This document shows, piece after piece, positions 3 through 11,875 of a stretch of 62,141 nt of DNA. The translations under genes and the position numbers were made by a program. Each line of letters opens with the position of its first letter. Position 1 is the stretch's first letter. The stretch is from positions 1 to 62,141 of the forward strand of contig JAQVRQ010000004.1 in the NCBI GenBank assembly GCA_028700975.1. Reading direction: 5' to 3'. The notes under the pieces were generated by a model. The model did no database searches. It was not told the DNA's origin and saw only the letters and a program-made list of their open reading frames with translations. The stretch comes from Bacteroidales bacterium. GTDB lineage: Bacteria; Bacteroidota; Bacteroidia; Bacteroidales; UBA932.

Positions 3-2006
3 GCAGAAAAGCAGGCAGTTCCAATAACTAAAAGTACTATTACCGTCGAAAACGGAAGGCTTACACCTGAAGTGATGCACAGTATGGGGAAACTATCAGA
101 TCCTCAGGTATCTCCTGACGGAAGCGAGATTCTTTATGGTGTAGCATATACAAGTATTCCTGAGAATAAAAATAACAGAGAATTATTTGTTATGAATACC
201 GATGGTTCTGACGTAAGGCAACTTACTAGCTCTGCCATCAGCGAAAACAACGCAAGATGGATTAACGATGGTAAAGAGATAGCCTACCTTTCGGGCGGAC
301 AAATTTGGATAATGGGCAAGGATGGCTCAAAAGCCAGGAAAATCAGTAATTACGAACCAGGAATCAACGAGTTTGAGTTTTCTCAGGATGGGAATAAAAT
401 ACTCTTTGTAAGCGAAATAAAAGCCGACAAAAAGGCTATTGATATTTGGCCGGATCTTGATAAAGCAAACGGCAGGATGTACTCAGATCTTATGTACAGA
501 CACTGGGACCATTTTGTAGAAAATATCCCTCACTCATTCATTGCAGACTTTGATGGGGTGAGTATTAATAATGTAACTGATATCCTGGAAGGTGAACCTT
601 ATGAGCTTCCAACTCTTCCTTTTGGAGGAATTGAGCAGCTCTCTTGGAGCCCGGATGGCTCAATGATTCTGTACTCTAGCAGAAAAGTTACCGGAAAAGA
701 TTATGCCTACTCAACTAATACAGATATATATCTTTATAATATTGAGGATAAGAGCCACGAAAATCTTACAGAAGGTATGCCAGGATACGATACAGACCCA
801 CTTTTTTCACCGGACGGGAAGAGCATCTCTTGGATCTCAATGGAGAGGGCAGGATTCGAAGCAGATAAAAGAAGAATATTTATAATGGATCTTGAGACAA
901 GGGTGAAAACCGAGTTGACAACAGATTTCCCATACAATGCAGAAAGTATCACCTGGCTTGCAGACGGGTCCGGCCTATATTTCACATCTTGCGTAAAGGC
1001 TCTTACAGGTGTTTATCACGTAAATCTTGCAGACAAGGAGATAAGGCAAGTTGTAGAGGGTCAGTACGATTTTGACGGAGTTCAACTTGCAGGAGAGAGA
1101 CTTGTTGGCACATATAAGAGTATGTCAATGCCAAATGAGATTGTGTCAATTAATCCTCAAGATGGTTCATTTAAGCAACTTTCGTTTGAAAACAAGCATC
1201 TGCTTGATCAGATAACAATGGGAAAAGTTGAGGAGAGATGGATTAAAACAGTCGACAATAAAGATATGCATATGTGGGTTATTTATCCACCAAATTTTGA
1301 CTCGACAAAAGTCTATCCAGCAATTCTTTTCTGCCTAGGTGGACCTCAAGGAACCTTAAGCCAGAGTTGGTCTTATCGTTGGAATTTCCAGCTTATGGCA
1401 GCTAACGATTATATAGTTATCCTTCCTAATAGAAGAGGAACCACTGCATTTGGACAAGAGTGGACAGATCAAATATCCGGAGATTATATAGGTCTGAATA
1501 TGCAGGATTATTTTTCATCCGTAAAGGAGATGAAAAAAGAGAAATATGTGGGTAAAGTTGGAGCCGTTGGAGCTAGCTATGGTGGTTATTCTGTTTTTTA
1601 CCTCGCAGGAATTCATAAAGGGATGTTTTCAGCATTCATTGCACACGCAGGAATTTTCAATCAGGAGCATATGTATATGACAACAGAGGAGTTATGGTTC
1701 CCGCATTGGGATAACGGAGGAGCTCCTTGGGATGACAATCCTGTTGCCAAAAGACATTACGCAAACTCTCCTCATAAACTTGTAAAAAACTGGGATACCC
1801 CTATCCTTATTACTCACGGAGAGATGGATTACCGAGTTCCGGTTGACCAGGGAATGGCTGCATTCAATGCTGCCAAAGCACTGGGAGTACCATCGGAATT
1901 ACTTCTTTTCCCTGGTGAAAACCACTGGATATTAAAACCTCAGAATAGCATTCAGTGGAACAGAGTATTCTTCTCTTGGTTGGATAAATGGCTTAAAATT
2001 AATTAA
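3..2006 (+). CDS. S9 family peptidase (prolyl oligopeptidase / TolB-like propeller), 5' truncated by the window edge
   Basis: Frame stays open upstream of the listed ATG at 72 (AEKQAVPITKSTITVENGRLTPEV-M...) to the window start; WD40-like repeats plus GASYGGYS nucleophile elbow and C-terminal HGEMDYRVP / ENHW. Confidence 0.9.
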   Translation, partial: AEKQAVPITKSTITVENGRLTPEVMHSMGKLSDPQVSPDGSEILYGVAYTSIPENKNNRELFVMNTDGSDVRQLTSSAISENNARWINDGKEIAYLSGGQIWIMGKDGSKARKISNYEPGINEFEFSQDGNKILFVSEIKADKKAIDIWPDLDKANGRMYSDLMYRHWDHFVENIPHSFIADFDGVSINNVTDILEGEPYELPTLPFGGIEQLSWSPDGSMILYSSRKVTGKDYAYSTNTDIYLYNIEDKSHENLTEGMPGYDTDPLFSPDGKSISWISMERAGFEADKRRIFIMDLETRVKTELTTDFPYNAESITWLADGSGLYFTSCVKALTGVYHVNLADKEIRQVVEGQYDFDGVQLAGERLVGTYKSMSMPNEIVSINPQDGSFKQLSFENKHLLDQITMGKVEERWIKTVDNKDMHMWVIYPPNFDSTKVYPAILFCLGGPQGTLSQSWSYRWNFQLMAANDYIVILPNRRGTTAFGQEWTDQISGDYIGLNMQDYFSSVKEMKKEKYVGKVGAVGASYGGYSVFYLAGIHKGMFSAFIAHAGIFNQEHMYMTTEELWFPHWDNGGAPWDDNPVAKRHYANSPHKLVKNWDTPILITHGEMDYRVPVDQGMAAFNAAKALGVPSELLLFPGENHWILKPQNSIQWNRVFFSWLDKWLKIN

Positions 2007-2013
2007 CAGAATA

Positions 2014-4821
2014 ATGAAAAAAATCATATCTATAGTACTGTTAGCTCTGTCAATATCTGCTTACGGACAGAAAAAAAACATTGACCACTCTGTATACGAT
2101 GATTGGAAAAGTGTTGGAAACGTTCAAATCACAGATAACGGACAATTCTCACTTTATCAGGTCAATGCTCAAGAGGGTGATGGTTACTTGGTGGCTCTTA
2201 ACCTATCAAACTTACAAAAAGAGAGTTTTCCCCGCGGAAACGGAGCTAGAATAACTCCAAATGGAGAGTTTGCCCTCTTTACAATTAAGCCTCTCTTTTC
2301 ACAGACAAAAGAGGCAAAAATTAAAAAGAGCAAGCCGGACCAAATGCCTAAAGATACGTTGGCAATATACAATTTAAAGAACAAAGATTTTAAAACATTC
2401 CCCTATTTAAAAGGGTTTAAAATGGCAAAGTGGGGTAATAAATATCTTGCCTTTCAAACCACTCCCCCTGCAGACACCTCAAAAGGGAAAAAGCCTGTAA
2501 AAAAAGATAAAGACGAGGGAAGCGATCTTTTTGTTTATAATTTAAATAGTGGCATCGTTGACACATTAAAATATGTAGCTGAATATGATTTTTCAAGGGG
2601 AGGTGACACACTCTTTTATGTGGCAAGGCCAAATTTAAAAGATTCTCTAAATAAACCCGGGCTATATATGTACAACCCGGCGAACAAATCAGTTATAACA
2701 ATTATTGAAACAACTATAAAGCAGAGTGTTAAACTACCCGAAGTTAGTGAAGACAATACTAAAATGGTTTTCTTTGCCAAGCTTGACACTACCAAAAAGA
2801 ATAAGGATAAAAATATATCTATTTTAGAGTTCAAGTCAGGAATGGAGAGTGCAAAAATATTACTGGACAACAATTTTGCATCGCTACCAAAAGGTATGAT
2901 AATAAGTGAAAACAGAGATCTCGCATTTAACAAAGAGGGTACACGATTATTCTTTGGAATAGCTCCCATTTTGCCTGAAAAGGATACTACAAATAAAGAC
3001 CCGGAAGTGGCAAAACTTGATATATGGCACTATGCAGAACCATATATTCAGCCAATGCAGCTTAGAAATCTTCAGAGGGAGATGCGTAAAAGCTATTTAA
3101 GTAAAATTGAGCTAGATGGAGACCCTAATTTTGTTCAATTAGCCAAAGAGGAGTACGAGAATGTAATTATACCTGCTAAATGGTCTTACAACAAAGGAAT
3201 TGCTGTAACCAATTACAGTTACAGGCTTGAATCACAATGGGATGCCAATCCAAAAAGAGACCTATACATAATAGATATTACAACAGGAGCAGCAAAACTG
3301 GTTACTAAAGGTGAATATATGAGTAGCTACTCCTTCTCACCCGAGGGTAATTTCTTTGTATGGTATAATAACAGTGATAAAAACTGGTATTCTCTAAACA
3401 TACCTGAGGAGAAAGTGGTATCACTAACTGAAGGGATGAACATCTCTTTTGCTGATGAACTTCACGACTCTCCATCTATGGCATCTTCATACGGAAACGG
3501 AGGCTGGACAGAAGAGGATAAAGCGATATTTATATACGACAGATACGATATATGGAAATTTGACCCAACAGCAAAGAAAAGTCCTCTCAATTTTACCGAG
3601 GGTAAAGGTAAAGCAGAAGGAATTACCTTTAGAATAACAAGGCCGGACCGTGATTTCAGAGACTCAGAACCTTTTGGAGAAAAATCCGAATTCATCTTTA
3701 CAGCATTTAATAATAAAACAAAAGAGAGCGGATTTTACTCCAAAGATCTTAAATCAAGAAAGCCCGTTCTGAAAGAATGGACTTTGGAGCCATTTTCATT
3801 CTCCTCTCTTAAGATGAGTAAGACCGGGAAAGAGCTTGTATATGTAAAAGCAAATTTTTCAAACTCACCGGATATATGGATTTCAAAAGAGAACTTTAAG
3901 AATCAAATAAAAGTTTCAGACATTAACCCGCAACAAAAAGATTATAACTGGGGAACTGTAGAGCTTGTAAACTGGAAATCAGCTACAGGAATTGAACTTG
4001 AAGGTCTTCTATACAAACCAGAAAACTTTGACCCGTCAAAGAAATACCCTATGCTGGTCTATTTTTACGAGAGGAATTCGCATCTCCTTTACTCATACAG
4101 AGCACCTGCTCCAAGTAGATCAACAATCAATATTCCATATTTTGTAAGTAATGAATATATTGTATTCATCCCGGATATTGCATATGAAATTGGACATCCC
4201 GGAAAGAGTGCAATAGATTGTATTGTACCAGGCGTTAAAATGCTTTGCGAGAACTCTTGGGTAGACAGTGATAATGTTGCTATTCAAGGACAGAGCTGGG
4301 GAGGTTACCAGGTTGCATATATGATTACTAAACCTGAAACCTTTAAATGGAAAGCTGGTGGTGCAGGTGCTCCGGTTTCAAATATGACTAGCGCATATGG
4401 TGGAATAAGATGGGGTTCCGGAATGGTTAGGCAATTCCAGTACGAACATACACAAAGTAGAATTGGCAAAACCCTTTGGGAGGCTCCCGAATTGTATATT
4501 GAGAACTCTCCTCTGTTTTTTGCAGACAAGGTTGAGACACCGCTTCTAATTATGCATAACGATGCTGACGATGCAGTCCCTTGGTATCAAGGAATTGAGT
4601 ACTTCACAGCCCTACGCAGACTAGGCAAGCCAGTTTGGATGTTGCAGTACAACAATGAAGTACACAATCTCTCCAAAAGAGTTAACGCAAAAGACTTGAG
4701 CATAAGACTTGCACAATTTTTTGATCACTATCTGAAAGGTGCTCCAATGCCTGTTTGGATGAAACGAGGTGTTCCGGCATCATTAAAGGGAATAGATTAT
4801 GGATATGATTTAACTGAATAA
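2014..4821 (+). CDS. S9 family peptidase, secreted
   Basis: Signal peptide MKKIISIVLLALSISAYGQ; GQSWGGYQ nucleophile elbow; HNDADDAVPW, NEVHNL. Confidence 0.9.
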   Translation: MKKIISIVLLALSISAYGQKKNIDHSVYDDWKSVGNVQITDNGQFSLYQVNAQEGDGYLVALNLSNLQKESFPRGNGARITPNGEFALFTIKPLFSQTKEAKIKKSKPDQMPKDTLAIYNLKNKDFKTFPYLKGFKMAKWGNKYLAFQTTPPADTSKGKKPVKKDKDEGSDLFVYNLNSGIVDTLKYVAEYDFSRGGDTLFYVARPNLKDSLNKPGLYMYNPANKSVITIIETTIKQSVKLPEVSEDNTKMVFFAKLDTTKKNKDKNISILEFKSGMESAKILLDNNFASLPKGMIISENRDLAFNKEGTRLFFGIAPILPEKDTTNKDPEVAKLDIWHYAEPYIQPMQLRNLQREMRKSYLSKIELDGDPNFVQLAKEEYENVIIPAKWSYNKGIAVTNYSYRLESQWDANPKRDLYIIDITTGAAKLVTKGEYMSSYSFSPEGNFFVWYNNSDKNWYSLNIPEEKVVSLTEGMNISFADELHDSPSMASSYGNGGWTEEDKAIFIYDRYDIWKFDPTAKKSPLNFTEGKGKAEGITFRITRPDRDFRDSEPFGEKSEFIFTAFNNKTKESGFYSKDLKSRKPVLKEWTLEPFSFSSLKMSKTGKELVYVKANFSNSPDIWISKENFKNQIKVSDINPQQKDYNWGTVELVNWKSATGIELEGLLYKPENFDPSKKYPMLVYFYERNSHLLYSYRAPAPSRSTINIPYFVSNEYIVFIPDIAYEIGHPGKSAIDCIVPGVKMLCENSWVDSDNVAIQGQSWGGYQVAYMITKPETFKWKAGGAGAPVSNMTSAYGGIRWGSGMVRQFQYEHTQSRIGKTLWEAPELYIENSPLFFADKVETPLLIMHNDADDAVPWYQGIEYFTALRRLGKPVWMLQYNNEVHNLSKRVNAKDLSIRLAQFFDHYLKGAPMPVWMKRGVPASLKGIDYGYDLTE

Positions 4822-4844: not shown

Positions 4845-4852
4845 TAAATTTG
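4845..4852 (+). promoter_or_regulatory. Bacteroidetes-type -7 box TAAATTTG
   Basis: Matches TAnnTTTG; 38 bp upstream of ATG 4891. Confidence 0.5.
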
Positions 4853-4890: not shown

Positions 4891-7800
4891 ATGACCTGCA
4901 AGAACTTAATCAATATAACAAGACAACTGCTATCAATTGCAGTTGTCTTGTTCTTCTTTAATGCCTGCAAAGAGACTAATAGTGAGATCGTCAGCCCCTC
5001 AACACCTCAATCCAGGGTTATTGAAGGTAAGATTTTTAAACAGGATAGTCTTAAAAAAGCTGTGGTTGTAAAAGCCGGAACTCCCCGGGTTGTCGTTGTA
5101 AAAAAAGAACCTATAAAAAAGAGAAAAGGTAATATCATACAGGCCGGCACTCCTACAAAACTTAAAATTGAGAACTCAAATATAATCACACCGGGGAAAG
5201 AGGGAATCCCGATTCCCATTGTTACGGTAATAAATGAAAAAGTTGTAACCACATTACCCCCGGAGAGGATTGAAGCTAAAAATGCGTATTTCAGAGATAG
5301 AAATCCATTCAATTTTAGCTCTATTGGAAAACTTCAGGGTTTGAGACACGATCAGATTAGAGCAATGACTGAAGACACATTTGGGAATCTTTGGCTTGGG
5401 ACAGACGACGGACTTACTAAATATGACGGAAGGTATCTATACCACTATACAACTCAACAAGGGTTAAGCAACAGCTTAATACTTTCTGTTCTGCACGACT
5501 CAAAGGGAAACATCTGGGCAGGAACCTTTAGGGGTGGTGCAGTTAAATTTGACGGACAAGAATTTCATATATTCACATCAGAAGATGGGCTTCCAAGCGA
5601 CATTGTCAACTGGATAGAAGAGGATAGCTCAGGAAATATTTGGATGGCCACCGGTGGAGGAGTAGTTAAATATGATGGAGAAAGTATAACTGTATATACC
5701 GAGGAGAATGGTCTGTGTGATAATGACGCCCGGTTTCTAATGATCGACAGGTACGGAAAACTATGGATTACGACAAATCTTGGCGGAATATCCCGCTTTG
5801 ACGGAGAGAGCTTTACCAACTTCACAAAAAATGAGGGACTCCCCCAAGATGAAGCAACAGCTTTATGTGAAGATAGAAAAGGGAACATATGGATAGGTCT
5901 CTCCACAATGGGATTAATTAAATTTGACGGCTCCAGCTTCTATCTTTACAATAATGACTCCGGGCTTGAAGATGGTGGAATAAGAAGTATTATGGAGGAT
6001 TGGAGGGGAAATCTATGGATTGGAACTACAAGAAGCGGGCTATTGCAGTTTGACGGTAATAGTTTTATCAATTATAGTATTGATGAAGGCCTAAACTCTG
6101 AATACATAAGATGTTTACACGAAGATAGATCCGGCAACATTTGGATTGGTACCAGATCTGCCGGATTAGTCAGATATAAAGGTGACTTATTTACTCACAG
6201 AACCATCGATGACGGGCTAAGCAACAGCCGAGTTATGAGCATTTTGGAAGACACTAAGGGCACTCTCTGGCTGGGAACTTTTGGAGGCTATATATCTTTG
6301 ATAACAGATAGAAAAAACCAAAACGGAGACGTTTCTTACTCACTTTTTGGCCCAAATCAAGGGCTGAATAGTTCACGAATATATAGCATAATAGAGACAC
6401 CGGAGGGAAAAATTTGGCTGGGTACAGATGGAGGTGGCATCACCCAGTTTGATGGACAGAGAAGTATTACCTATACAACCAAAGAGGGACTTTGTGATAA
6501 TACCATACGAGATATAGCTCAAACTGCCTCCGGAGAGCTATGGATTGCCAGCTACGGAGGAGGAGCCTCACTTTTTAATGGTAAGAGCTTTTCAAATTAC
6601 TCCACATCTAATGGCCTTAGCAGCAACAATATTATGGCCATTCACGAAGATAGCAGAGGTATAGTATGGTTTGCTACAGATGGTGGAGGTATTACACTTT
6701 TTAATGGAGAAGAGTTTACTCATTACACAACAAATGAAGGTTTCTGCTGCAATGTTGTTTATAGTATAGCAGAGGATGACAATGGAGATATTTGGATCGG
6801 CACTGGAGGGGAGGGAGTTCTCAGATTTGATGGTGAAAAATTCACACACTATTCCATAAAAGAGGGGCTAAACAACGAATACGTCCTTTCACTTTTAAAA
6901 GATTCAAAAGGTAATATATGGGCAGGAACCAGATATGGTATAAATAGAATTTCAAAAGACCCCTCTCGAAATGAATATAAAATTAGGAGCTATAATTATG
7001 AAGAGGGCTTCATTGGAATGGGCTGTAATCTTGGAGCCATTGAAGAGCTATCAAATGGTGAAATTATTGTTGGCACAACTGATCGTCTGACAAAATTCCA
7101 CGGAGACAAGGAGCCTCAAAGTGGAGCTCCATTCACAATGCAACTTACAAATTTACTAGTATTCAACGAAGAAATACCTTGGGTCCAACTAAACTCGTTA
7201 AAAGACTCCCTTTTCCAACTTAAAAACGGCTTACTGCTTAAAAACATAAAAATATCCGGGATATCCAGATGGAATAATATTCCAATTGACCTTGAATTAC
7301 CCCACAAGCTAAATTATATAACTTTCAAATTTATTGCTGTTACACAGAATGAAATAGCCAAAGTTCGTTATGAGTATATGCTTGATGGGCTTGACAAAAC
7401 TTGGAATAATGCCTCAACTGTTACTGAGATACCATATGTTAATTTATCTCCCGGAAGATACTCCTTTAAAGTGAGAGCAACTTCAAGCGAGGGAAAGAGG
7501 AGCGAAGAGGTAACTTACAACTTTAGAATTAAACCTCCTTGGTGGCAGACTTACTGGTTCTATGTTCTACTGTTTAGCTTATTTATATTATTCTTCTACT
7601 TATTTATTAAATATAGAGAGCGAATTTTAAAAAGAGATAAAGAGCTACTTGAGCTGAAGGTTCAAGAGCAAACGGAAGAACTTCTACTTAAAAATAATGA
7701 ACTAGAGGTAATTAATATGGAGAAAGACAAGCTCTTTTCCGTTATTGCTCACGATCTGAGAGGTCCTTTTGGAACCTTCCTGGGACTTACTCAGATAATG

Positions 7801-8409
7801 TCTGAAGATTTCTCCTCTTTTACAGAAAAGGAACTTAGATCTTTTGCCGAAAATATGAACAGTACCGCAAAAAATCTATTCAATCTCTTGGAAAACCTCC
7901 TTCACTGGGCTAAAATGCAAAGACAAGCAGTTCCATTCAACCCTGTTGAAATAGAGCTAAAATACTCAATAATTGACAATTTGGGATGGGTTTCTGATTC
8001 AGCAAAGAAAAAAGGGATTAGTTTAATTATTGATATTCCTGAAGACTTAAAAATTGTAGCAGATGAGAGTATGTTGCAAACAATTATCAGAAATATTGTA
8101 AGCAATTCCGTTAAATTCACCCCGGAGGGTGGTGAGGTTTCAATAAAATCAATAATTACTGATGGGATTATTGAGATTATTGTAAAAGATAGTGGAATTG
8201 GAATGGATGAGGAGTTAAAAAATAACATATTCAAACTAGGGAATAAAAGTGGAAGAAGCGGTACCGATGGAGAGCCTAGTACAGGACTTGGTCTTATAAT
8301 TTGTAAAGAGTTGGTGGAATTGCATAAAGGCACAATACTTGTTGAGAGTTCCCCGAAAAATGGATCCAAATTCATTATTAGACTTCCAATAAAACAGGAA
8401 CGAGATTGA
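4891..8409 (+). CDS. Reg_prop/Y_Y_Y two-component sensor histidine kinase (no receiver or AraC domain)
   Basis: About 14 N-[IL]-W-[IL]-G-T blades, Y_Y_Y domain, TM, H-box AHDLRG, N-box NIVSNSVKFTP, DSGIGM, STGLGL. Start moved from 4852 (GTG) to ATG 4891 because the -7 box overlaps the GTG. Confidence 0.88.
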   Translation: MTCKNLINITRQLLSIAVVLFFFNACKETNSEIVSPSTPQSRVIEGKIFKQDSLKKAVVVKAGTPRVVVVKKEPIKKRKGNIIQAGTPTKLKIENSNIITPGKEGIPIPIVTVINEKVVTTLPPERIEAKNAYFRDRNPFNFSSIGKLQGLRHDQIRAMTEDTFGNLWLGTDDGLTKYDGRYLYHYTTQQGLSNSLILSVLHDSKGNIWAGTFRGGAVKFDGQEFHIFTSEDGLPSDIVNWIEEDSSGNIWMATGGGVVKYDGESITVYTEENGLCDNDARFLMIDRYGKLWITTNLGGISRFDGESFTNFTKNEGLPQDEATALCEDRKGNIWIGLSTMGLIKFDGSSFYLYNNDSGLEDGGIRSIMEDWRGNLWIGTTRSGLLQFDGNSFINYSIDEGLNSEYIRCLHEDRSGNIWIGTRSAGLVRYKGDLFTHRTIDDGLSNSRVMSILEDTKGTLWLGTFGGYISLITDRKNQNGDVSYSLFGPNQGLNSSRIYSIIETPEGKIWLGTDGGGITQFDGQRSITYTTKEGLCDNTIRDIAQTASGELWIASYGGGASLFNGKSFSNYSTSNGLSSNNIMAIHEDSRGIVWFATDGGGITLFNGEEFTHYTTNEGFCCNVVYSIAEDDNGDIWIGTGGEGVLRFDGEKFTHYSIKEGLNNEYVLSLLKDSKGNIWAGTRYGINRISKDPSRNEYKIRSYNYEEGFIGMGCNLGAIEELSNGEIIVGTTDRLTKFHGDKEPQSGAPFTMQLTNLLVFNEEIPWVQLNSLKDSLFQLKNGLLLKNIKISGISRWNNIPIDLELPHKLNYITFKFIAVTQNEIAKVRYEYMLDGLDKTWNNASTVTEIPYVNLSPGRYSFKVRATSSEGKRSEEVTYNFRIKPPWWQTYWFYVLLFSLFILFFYLFIKYRERILKRDKELLELKVQEQTEELLLKNNELEVINMEKDKLFSVIAHDLRGPFGTFLGLTQIMSEDFSSFTEKELRSFAENMNSTAKNLFNLLENLLHWAKMQRQAVPFNPVEIELKYSIIDNLGWVSDSAKKKGISLIIDIPEDLKIVADESMLQTIIRNIVSNSVKFTPEGGEVSIKSIITDGIIEIIVKDSGIGMDEELKNNIFKLGNKSGRSGTDGEPSTGLGLIICKELVELHKGTILVESSPKNGSKFIIRLPIKQERD

Positions 8410-8416
8410 AAAATTG

Positions 8417-11400
8417 ATGAAGCAAGTTCTGGTATATCTGTTTATCCTTTCAGTTACACTTGTCTCCTGTAAAAGAGAGAGTGCGACAAATGAGTCGCAT
8501 CTACAACCTGCCATACTTACAATTAAAGGATATGTTGTTCCATCTGATTCTGTATTACCTCCCGATACTACCCGTATCAAAATCCCAAATGGCGTACCTG
8601 TGAGGATGTCACCCCCTTTTGCACTAAGTACAAACCAAAGCAACATCCCTCTCTCTCTGAAAATCAGCAAAATGATAACTACTACCAGACATATTGGTGC
8701 TGGCGAATACAAAATTCCAAGTGTAGTTCAATTTAATGAGAGTAAAAAAATGGTTGGGTTTCCTGTTAGAGTTCAAGTAAAAGAGCCTCTTTATAAAGAG
8801 ATTAATCCCGGAAGTTTTTTCTATTACAACACTACACAAGGGCTACTACACGATCAAATTAGGGCATTGGCTCAAGATTCCATTGGTAATATATGGATAG
8901 GAACAGACAGAGGGTTGTCAAGATACGATGGAAAGGACCTCTATCATTTTACAGAGAATCAAGGTCTGGTAAATGAACTGATAAATGTACTATTTATTGA
9001 TTCCAAACAAAATATTTGGATAAGTACATATGAGGGAGGTGTTACAAGGTACGATGGTAAGTATTTTACCAAAATATCCACTCAAGAGGGCCTGCCCCAC
9101 GAACTGGTAAATTGTATCTTTGAAGATAGACATAACAGAATTTGGTTTGGAACAAGAAGAGGCCTTGTTATGTATGAGGAGGATAAACTTACAATATTTA
9201 CGACAGAAAACGGACTTTCTGCAAACGATGTAAGATCAATTATTGAAGATGGGTCCGGGAAAATGTGGATTGCTACATACGGAGGTGGTATCTCTATATA
9301 CGATGGAGATAGTTTCTCTGTTTTCACTACAAAAGAGGGGCTTATTCAAGATCATATCTCCCTTTTATTCAGAGATAGCAAAAACAATATCTGGATAAGT
9401 ACTGCCTTTATGGGTATAATAAAATATGATGGAAGAGCACTAACATCATACACAACCAAGGAGGGACTTGGTAATAACTCTATTAGAAGTATCCTTGAGG
9501 ATAGGGATGGCAATATGTGGTTTGGCAATTCAAATGGAAATCTCACTCGTTTTGACGGAAGTGCAATGAGAGTTTACGGGAAAAGTGACGGACTTGTCGC
9601 TGAGGCTATAAGAAGCTCCCTGCAGGACAAAAACGGGAATATATGGTTTGGTACAAGAGGAGCAGGACTTGTGAGATTTGAAGGGAGATTATTCTCACAT
9701 TACACAGAACAAGAGGGACTTACAAGTGCCCGCATATCAAATATCAATGAAGACCACAACGGCAAGCTGTGGATAAGCACTTTTGGTGGTCATATTAATA
9801 TTTTGACTGAAGGAGTATCAAATAGTGTGAAAAGACAATATATTCAACACTTTGGTCCTGAATCCGGTTTTAATAATAGATTTGTTTTTAAGACTGTAAC
9901 AGACTCGGAGGGAAGGATATGGATTGCATCTGATTTCAACGGATTAGTAATGTATAATGGCTCTAAGTTGTTTAATTATGATGAAAAATCCGGTATACCA
10001 GGAAAGATTGTAACGCTTGTAGAAACGGACAACTCCGGAAGAATCTGGCTCTCTACAATGCGAACTGGAATTTCTCTGTTAGATGGAGATAAACTTATTA
10101 ACTACAGAATTAGAAATGGAATAAGTGGCAATCATTTAAGAAGCTTTTTACAAGACAGTAAAAATAATATTTGGCTTGGTACAGCAGGCGGAGGAGTTAC
10201 AAAATTTGATGGTAAATCATTTATCCATTTCAACAAGAAACACGGCTTCTTTACAGACACAATAAATGATATTATTGAAGATAACAGGGGTATTATATGG
10301 ATGGCAAGCGTAGGGAGTGGATTAATCAGATATGATGGTGAAAGCTTCATAAGATATTCAGAAGAGAGTGGTCTTAAAAGTAATGCGCTATCAAGCATCA
10401 TCCAGGATAGAAAAGGAGACCTGTGGATAGGTACAAGATATGGCCTATATCAAATTAAAAAGAGAGTTCTGGAGTCTATTGATACTATTAACAGGGGAAT
10501 TTCGCTGAATAGCTATGGAGTTGAACAGGGATTTATGGGAATGGAGTGTAGAAAAGAGGCTCTACACGAGGCTTCTGATGGTACAATCTGGATAGGAACA
10601 GAGAATAGATTAACGGCCTATCACGGCGGAAGCACTACAGAGAACGAGATACCTCCATCATTACAAATCACAAACATTCAACTTTTTAACGAAGATGTCC
10701 CTTGGAGTTCAATTTGTGCTTATCCAGACAGCACTATTACCCTGAAAAACGGAATAAAGATTAATCACATTAAAATCAAAGATGTATCAGAATGGTACGC
10801 AATCCCCCAAAATTTAAAACTAAACAGAAAATCTAACTACATCACATTTCAGTTCATTGCAACAACTCACTCTAAGACTAGCAAAATAAAATACCAGTAT
10901 ATGCTTGAAGGGCTTGACAAGAACTGGAGCTCATCAACGGAAAGAACAGAGGTCTCATACGGCAATCTAAAACAGGGCAATTATACCTTCAGAGTTAAAT
11001 CTCTAGCGGGAAATGGACTAGAGAGCAATGAATCTAGCTTCTCATTCAAAATTAAGCCATCCTGGTGGGAGACAATATTTGTTCAAATACTAGTAATCCT
11101 ATTGGTTATATATTTATTACTTAAGTATATCCGGCACAGAACTAAAACACTAAATAAAGAAAAAGAGCAATTGGAAAATAGGCTCTGCGAAACAAGTGCA
11201 GAGCTTGAAAAGAGCTTGAAAAGAGCTCAAATTTTAAACCACGAAAAAGAGAAAGTGTTTTCAATTATTTCAAATGATTTAAGAGGGTCAATTAGTAGCT
11301 TTTTGGGAATAACTAAAACAATGAAGTCTGCCCAATCAATTAACAACCTTTTAGATAACCTCCTTCAATGGTCTGCTATACAACAAAACAATATCCTCTT

Positions 11401-11875
11401 TAATCCGGAAAAAATTAATATTAATGATGCTTTTCTGAATGATTTAGGCCAACTGACTGAACAGGCAAAAGAGAAGGAGATATCAATTACACATAAAATT
11501 CCTGTAAAACTAGAAATTGAAGCAGACCTAAAAATGTTGAGTACTATTTTTAGAAATTTAATCTCAAACTCTATTAAATTTACGCCAAGAGGCGGTGCTG
11601 TTAACATTAAAATTGATACAAAATCAAAAGAAGATATAAGTATCATTATTACGGATAATGGCATTGGAATGACTCAAGATACTATAGAAAACATCTTTAC
11701 ACTAAATATAGAGACGGGAAGAAGCGGTACTGAGGGCGAACCAAGCACCGGATTAGGCTTATTAATCTGTAACAATCTTATAAAAAAACACTCCGGACGA
11801 ATAGAAATTATCTCCGAAATTAAAAAAGGGAGCAAAGTTATTGTAACACTTCCTAGGAGGCAGGATGGAAATTAA
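8417..11875 (+). CDS. Reg_prop/Y_Y_Y sensor kinase paralog with degenerate H-box (NDLRG)
   Basis: Same architecture as the upstream gene, about 14 blades, Y_Y_Y, TM, HATPase motifs NLISNSIKFTP, DNGIGM, STGLGL; phosphoacceptor His replaced by Asn. Confidence 0.85.
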   Translation: MKQVLVYLFILSVTLVSCKRESATNESHLQPAILTIKGYVVPSDSVLPPDTTRIKIPNGVPVRMSPPFALSTNQSNIPLSLKISKMITTTRHIGAGEYKIPSVVQFNESKKMVGFPVRVQVKEPLYKEINPGSFFYYNTTQGLLHDQIRALAQDSIGNIWIGTDRGLSRYDGKDLYHFTENQGLVNELINVLFIDSKQNIWISTYEGGVTRYDGKYFTKISTQEGLPHELVNCIFEDRHNRIWFGTRRGLVMYEEDKLTIFTTENGLSANDVRSIIEDGSGKMWIATYGGGISIYDGDSFSVFTTKEGLIQDHISLLFRDSKNNIWISTAFMGIIKYDGRALTSYTTKEGLGNNSIRSILEDRDGNMWFGNSNGNLTRFDGSAMRVYGKSDGLVAEAIRSSLQDKNGNIWFGTRGAGLVRFEGRLFSHYTEQEGLTSARISNINEDHNGKLWISTFGGHINILTEGVSNSVKRQYIQHFGPESGFNNRFVFKTVTDSEGRIWIASDFNGLVMYNGSKLFNYDEKSGIPGKIVTLVETDNSGRIWLSTMRTGISLLDGDKLINYRIRNGISGNHLRSFLQDSKNNIWLGTAGGGVTKFDGKSFIHFNKKHGFFTDTINDIIEDNRGIIWMASVGSGLIRYDGESFIRYSEESGLKSNALSSIIQDRKGDLWIGTRYGLYQIKKRVLESIDTINRGISLNSYGVEQGFMGMECRKEALHEASDGTIWIGTENRLTAYHGGSTTENEIPPSLQITNIQLFNEDVPWSSICAYPDSTITLKNGIKINHIKIKDVSEWYAIPQNLKLNRKSNYITFQFIATTHSKTSKIKYQYMLEGLDKNWSSSTERTEVSYGNLKQGNYTFRVKSLAGNGLESNESSFSFKIKPSWWETIFVQILVILLVIYLLLKYIRHRTKTLNKEKEQLENRLCETSAELEKSLKRAQILNHEKEKVFSIISNDLRGSISSFLGITKTMKSAQSINNLLDNLLQWSAIQQNNILFNPEKININDAFLNDLGQLTEQAKEKEISITHKIPVKLEIEADLKMLSTIFRNLISNSIKFTPRGGAVNIKIDTKSKEDISIIITDNGIGMTQDTIENIFTLNIETGRSGTEGEPSTGLGLLICNNLIKKHSGRIEIISEIKKGSKVIVTLPRRQDGN

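Follow-up and report, generated by a model that had tools for sequence, protein, structure and literature searches.

A Reg_prop sensor-kinase paralogue with a shortened DHp hairpin and a replaced phosphoacceptor histidine, encoded beside a canonical kinase in Bacteroidales

Known pseudo-histidine kinases and the K1-K2 gene pair

The phosphoacceptor His is missing from about 1% of sequenced histidine kinases, and Gln and Asn are among the residues found in its place (PMC5361649). Partnerships between a kinase and a pseudokinase have precedents in FasBC (PMC12675982), DivL-CckA (PMC4211667) and ChrS-HrrS (PMC9491836). DivL of Caulobacter has a histidine kinase fold in which the phosphoacceptor is replaced, and it regulates another kinase (PMC4211667, PMC5361649). 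In group A Streptococcus, FasB and FasC are encoded by adjacent sensor-kinase-like genes, one product being a proposed pseudokinase, and the two form a heterodimer (PMC12675982). RetS of Pseudomonas aeruginosa inhibits GacS via a heteromeric DHp-DHp interface (PMC12148439), and in Corynebacterium a pseudokinase form of ChrS, one of two paralogues, alters output through HrrS (PMC9491836). Both pseudo-histidine kinases, as in DivL, and kinase/pseudokinase partners encoded side by side, as in FasBC, are already known; we found no described case of a Bacteroidota pseudo-histidine kinase in the open-access literature. Few His-less kinases have been studied, and little is known of their origin.

The window analyzed here is a stretch of 62,141 nucleotides from a Bacteroidales genome (G000). 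It carries two paralogous genes on the same strand, K1 and K2, which a first-pass annotation had placed 7 bp apart; we confirmed this spacing, with the spacer at 8410-8416.

4891..8409, plus strand: K1, canonical Reg_prop sensor histidine kinase, 1172 aa, H-box AHDLRG (translation, Pfam)
8417..11875, plus strand: K2, predicted Reg_prop pseudo-histidine kinase, 1152 aa, SNDLRG at the same site (translation, Pfam, orthologues)
8834..10636, plus strand: propeller region of K2 with the Reg_prop repeats, conserved better than the rest of the protein; limits approximate
11525..11860, plus strand: K2 HATPase_c domain, residues 1037-1148 (Pfam), with the N, G1, F and G2 box residues retained

The two proteins share 39% identity along their full length. 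Pfam identified Reg_prop repeats, Y_Y_Y and HATPase_c in both, so that the common layout first proposed holds for these domains, but 12 and 13 Reg_prop stretches, not 14, passed the threshold individually in the pair; the 14-blade reading of the propellers is based on similarity to PDB entries 4a2l and 3v9f. HisKA was detected in K1 above the cut-off (29.3 bits) and was absent from the Pfam matches of K2 even at E values up to 1. Reg_prop propellers joined to Y_Y_Y also form the sensors of the Bacteroides hybrid two-component systems (PDB 4a2l, 3v9f, 3ott), as they do in K1 and K2. However, both proteins stop after HATPase_c, and Pfam found neither the receiver nor the AraC-type DNA-binding domain that follows the ATPase domain in the hybrid systems. 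At the N-terminus, a lipobox-like motif, [L/F/I/A]-x-[S/A]-C, ends a hydrophobic stretch in each of the 24 family members whose N-terminus could be read (L099 is ambiguous), encoded in the window within 4891-4970 for K1 and 8417-8500 for K2. These N-termini suggest that sensor kinases of the K1/K2 type may be lipid-anchored, in addition to crossing the inner membrane once further on.

Losses in the phosphorelay region of K2 and their order

We compared the H-box, the DHp hairpin and the preceding linker coil of K2 with those of K1, using the following positions.

7750..7752, plus strand: K1 codon CAC for the phosphoacceptor His
11273..11275, plus strand: K2 codon AAT (Asn) at the phosphoacceptor position
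7801..7860, plus strand: K1 DHp hairpin tip, H+17 to H+36, without a K2 counterpart (MAFFT alignment)
11323..11324, plus strand: K2 junction at which 20 DHp residues are missing (MAFFT alignment)
11135..11272, plus strand: K2 linker coil from the membrane to the H-box position, 46 aa, fast-diverging in sequence

Both H-box sequences and their codons proved to be as first annotated. The H-box residue and the LLxN motif are 45 residues apart in K1 and 25 in K2, which turns an initial estimate of about 20 missing residues into exactly 20, although MAFFT places this gap in the hairpin only to within several residues. The linker coil of K2 has kept the length and heptad register of that of K1. Measured against 38 other kinase cores, K2 departs from positions conserved in at least 92% of them at the H-box His (position 71) and Pro (position 76) and in two conservative changes, A170S and F259V. 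The phosphoacceptor is His in 38/38 of the other aligned cores outside the short-DHp clade described below, and is replaced by Asn in K2 and by Gln in the orthologue from G101, the replacement that defines a pseudo-histidine kinase. The HATPase boxes had been called intact, and we found every N, G1, F and G2 residue in K2; all catalytic-site consensus residues of the ATPase (CA) domain are retained in four genomes. We also considered an alternative acceptor in the K2 DHp, a His 8 residues before the Asn, and rejected it since this residue is missing from G101 and G078.

Orthologues of K2 were present in three other genomes of the genus, with 67% identity in G101 and 62% in both G078 and G157 (L011 is the same strain as G101 or very close to it, and L012 corresponds to G157). 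An order-wide search of 393 genomes returned no further close homologues, and the short form is known from only four genomes representing three clearly distinct lineages. Every orthologue has a shortened DHp, the distance from phosphoacceptor to X-box being 22 residues in G101 and 21 in each of G078 and G157, compared to 25 in K2 and exactly 45 in 24/24 other kinases of the set. The five sister second genes (G049, G153, G155, G156 and G090) have HDLRG and the full 45-residue DHp. The short-DHp genes form a clade with 100/100 support, identical when the linker and DHp columns are left out, on a stem branch of 0.69, longer than those of the two sister groups (0.37 and 0.40).

The H-box reads SQDLKG in G101 and THDLRS, with the His retained, in G078 and G157; not every member of the clade has become a pseudo-kinase. 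The first-pass annotation had held that a His at this position in orthologues of the second gene would reduce the finding to a lone mutation or a sequencing error. Such orthologues exist in G078 and G157, but their DHp is shortened in the same way, and G101 has Gln. A His retained on a shortened DHp points to His loss as a later step and not to a sequencing error, and the pattern across the clade indicates that the DHp was shortened first, on the clade stem, with the His lost afterwards. Since AAT in K2 and CAA in G101 are each one base from a His codon and two bases from each other, two separate losses are the simpler reading, and the His was probably lost twice, independently. Taken together, the initial prediction of an ATP-binding pseudo-kinase is well supported by the missing phosphoacceptor in two independent assemblies, the shared loss of the hairpin tip and the ATP-site residues kept in four genomes.

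AlphaFold2 models built with 42 family sequences gave a shortened hairpin for K2 (helices 5-82 and 87-107; confidence in the DHp is low, 51-68 in blocks) and a full hairpin for K1 (helices 5-88 and 96-127). The K2 model matched the structures of HK853 and DivL (TM-score 0.66 for DivL 4q20). K1 aligned with HK853 without gaps through the DHp. Residues A268, A271, T275, V294 and D297 of HK853, named in PDB entry titles as those of a rewired interface, correspond to H+8, +11, +15, +34 and +37. With the gap placement uncertain by several residues, V294 (H+34) maps inside the K2 gap and D297 (H+37) to its edge, such that some of the response-regulator interface positions named in these titles would be missing from K2. 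In this respect K2 differs from DivL, whose DHp is complete and still docks DivK~P and whose ATP binding is weak, whereas 20-24 hairpin residues are missing in the short-DHp genes and K2 has kept its ATP-site residues. The sensor of DivL is PAS and not a propeller, and K2 has a paralogue next door.

Constraint on K2 and its relation to K1

Pairwise dN/dS among G000, G101 and G078 could not be used because synonymous sites were saturated, and we instead compared the amino-acid divergence of K2 with that of K1 over these same three species (column-bootstrap intervals in brackets). Relative to K1, divergence was 3.73 (2.38-7.60) in the linker coil, 1.94 (1.30-2.96) in the DHp, 1.28 (1.06-1.57) in Y_Y_Y, 1.08 (0.92-1.28) in the CA domain and 0.82 (0.71-0.92) in the propeller. 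In the sister second genes, which retain the His, the DHp is nearly unchanged (0/73 differences between G153 and G090, 1/73 between G049 and G156), and relaxation is therefore limited to the relay, and to genes of the short-DHp clade. The K2 frame is open at full length in four genomes, and the whole gene gave a dN/dS of 0.089 between G078 and G157, a value that speaks mainly for the sensor half because the signalling halves of these two are nearly identical in DNA. A fast linker and DHp, a CA domain on pace with that of K1 and a slower propeller characterize K2, we propose, as a pseudo-histidine kinase, a receptor that is maintained although its relay is disabled; with its sensor and ATP-binding parts intact, K2 is probably a receptor put to new use rather than a damaged gene. 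The losses of parts, their order and the continued constraint on the sensor and ATPase domain are read directly from K2 and its orthologues.

K1 and K2 are adjacent in all three genomes in which this could be tested (G000, G101 and G078), and K2 was never seen without K1 where the flank was complete; with the 7-bp gap, this is an arrangement of adjacent paralogues of the FasBC type. Outside the short-DHp clade the pair is not always adjacent, as the first and second kinase genes of G049 (C5 and C8) lie on different contigs.

We put at even chances the reading that K2 is a maintained, receptor-type pseudo-histidine kinase that joins its operon partner K1 in a mixed membrane complex and modulates it there. 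The periplasmic propeller of K2 would still bind ligand and its ATPase domain ATP, but the tip of the DHp hairpin is gone, and with it some of the surface expected to dock a response regulator; the window genome and one relative lack the phosphoacceptor as well. With tip and His gone, K2 is very likely unable to carry or pass a phosphohistidine of its own. It could then lend its ATPase domain to the His of K1 in trans, or hold K1 less active; we infer both the complex and the sign of the effect on K1. A mixed complex is the leading idea because of the adjacency, the 7-bp gap, the equal coil length and the same heptad register. However, K2 has diverged most in the linker coil and DHp, regions that evolve slowly in K1; this counts against an obligate tight heterodimer and therefore holds the K1-directed reading at no better than even, leaving an independent receptor as a lesser but real possibility.

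On this last account, K2 would be a homodimeric pseudo-kinase receptor acting on a partner other than K1 through conformation or ATP binding, with DivL-like logic. The linker and DHp of K2 no longer track those of K1, the retained coil length and heptads would permit a homodimer, and in G049 the second gene is not beside the first; we nevertheless consider this unlikely given the strict K1 neighbourhood in the short-DHp genomes, and no candidate partner was seen. Rather unlikely, too, is the more specific proposal that K2 serves as a second receptor and is dedicated to donating its ATPase, the CA domain phosphorylating the His of K1 in a hetero-complex made asymmetric by the short DHp. If true, two different propeller ligands would be combined at one His, and the relatives would record the order of steps toward such a partner, the docking tip going first and the phosphoacceptor second.

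It is improbable that K2 still transfers phosphoryl groups, whether from a displaced DHp acceptor or, in G078 and G157, from the retained His. That His and the retained ATP-site residues would allow it, but no other conserved DHp His exists, the one at -8 being missing in G101 and G078, and the hairpin tip at which a response regulator would be expected to dock is gone. Progressive loss in the linker and DHp and the long stem branch of the clade (0.69 vs 0.37 and 0.40) might also suggest a gene on its way out with a decaying signalling half, which we regard as quite improbable against full-length open frames in four genomes, a dN/dS of 0.089 and a CA domain and propeller conserved at least as well as in K1; a pseudogene was rejected on these grounds. 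Although the window genome is a draft metagenome-assembled genome of 86% completeness, errors of sequencing or assembly can be dismissed, as can a lone point mutation, since the short DHp is common to independent assemblies and another of them also lacks the His.

Compared with the described partnerships, K1-K2 resembles FasBC in gene arrangement, but FasC depends on its His and can do without its kinase domain, whereas K2 has kept the kinase domain and lost the His. The fas operon also holds the response regulator gene fasA, while no receiver domain or response-regulator partner was found on the 62-kb K1-K2 contig. RetS is a hybrid kinase that uses a full DHp as its interface, unlike the shortened, fast-evolving DHp of K2, and the frameshifted ChrS pseudokinase is of laboratory origin and lost its CA domain, not its His. 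K2 is set apart by having a Reg_prop sensor and a retained ATP site but no hairpin tip, and by an order of loss that can still be read. The short-DHp clade, in a small group of uncultured Bacteroidota, catches the transition to a His-less kinase beside an active-looking paralogue, the series running from full-length sisters through short-DHp forms with His to two short-DHp forms that lost it by different routes. It allows testing of which function goes first and which is kept.

Transcription and flanking sequences

Upstream of K1, we identified one promoter-like element.

4845..4852, plus strand: TAAATTTG, which fits the Bacteroidota -7 promoter element TAnnTTTG; found upstream of K1 in five genomes; putative promoter

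In G078, G153 and G090, a terminator-like hairpin lies just upstream of the promoter-like TAAATTTG, and the two elements together suggest a separate K1-K2 transcript. Co-transcription of K1 and K2 is plausible because of the 7-bp gap, the adjacency in 3/3 genomes and the promoter-like element in five.

Within the signal-peptide coding region of K1, positions 4917-4952 hold a perfect hairpin of 14 bp with a T-rich tail behind it. It is retained in L011 with a U-A to U-G change, with fold z-scores of -4.9 and -6.2, and G078, G153 and G090 have in its place the different hairpin upstream of the promoter-like element. No Rfam family matched the 5′ region of K1 at threshold; the 4917-4952 hairpin could possibly be an attenuator or a displaced terminator. 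At the other end, the 3′ end of K2 overlaps convergently with the 3′ end of a minus-strand DUF6599 gene at 11853-11875, and likewise in L011 and L012.

In the window (72-4821) and in L011, K1 is immediately preceded by two prolyl-oligopeptidase (S9) family genes, and the end of the second one is recognizable upstream of K1 in G078, G153 and G090. A sensor ligand linked to peptides is, at present, a speculation.
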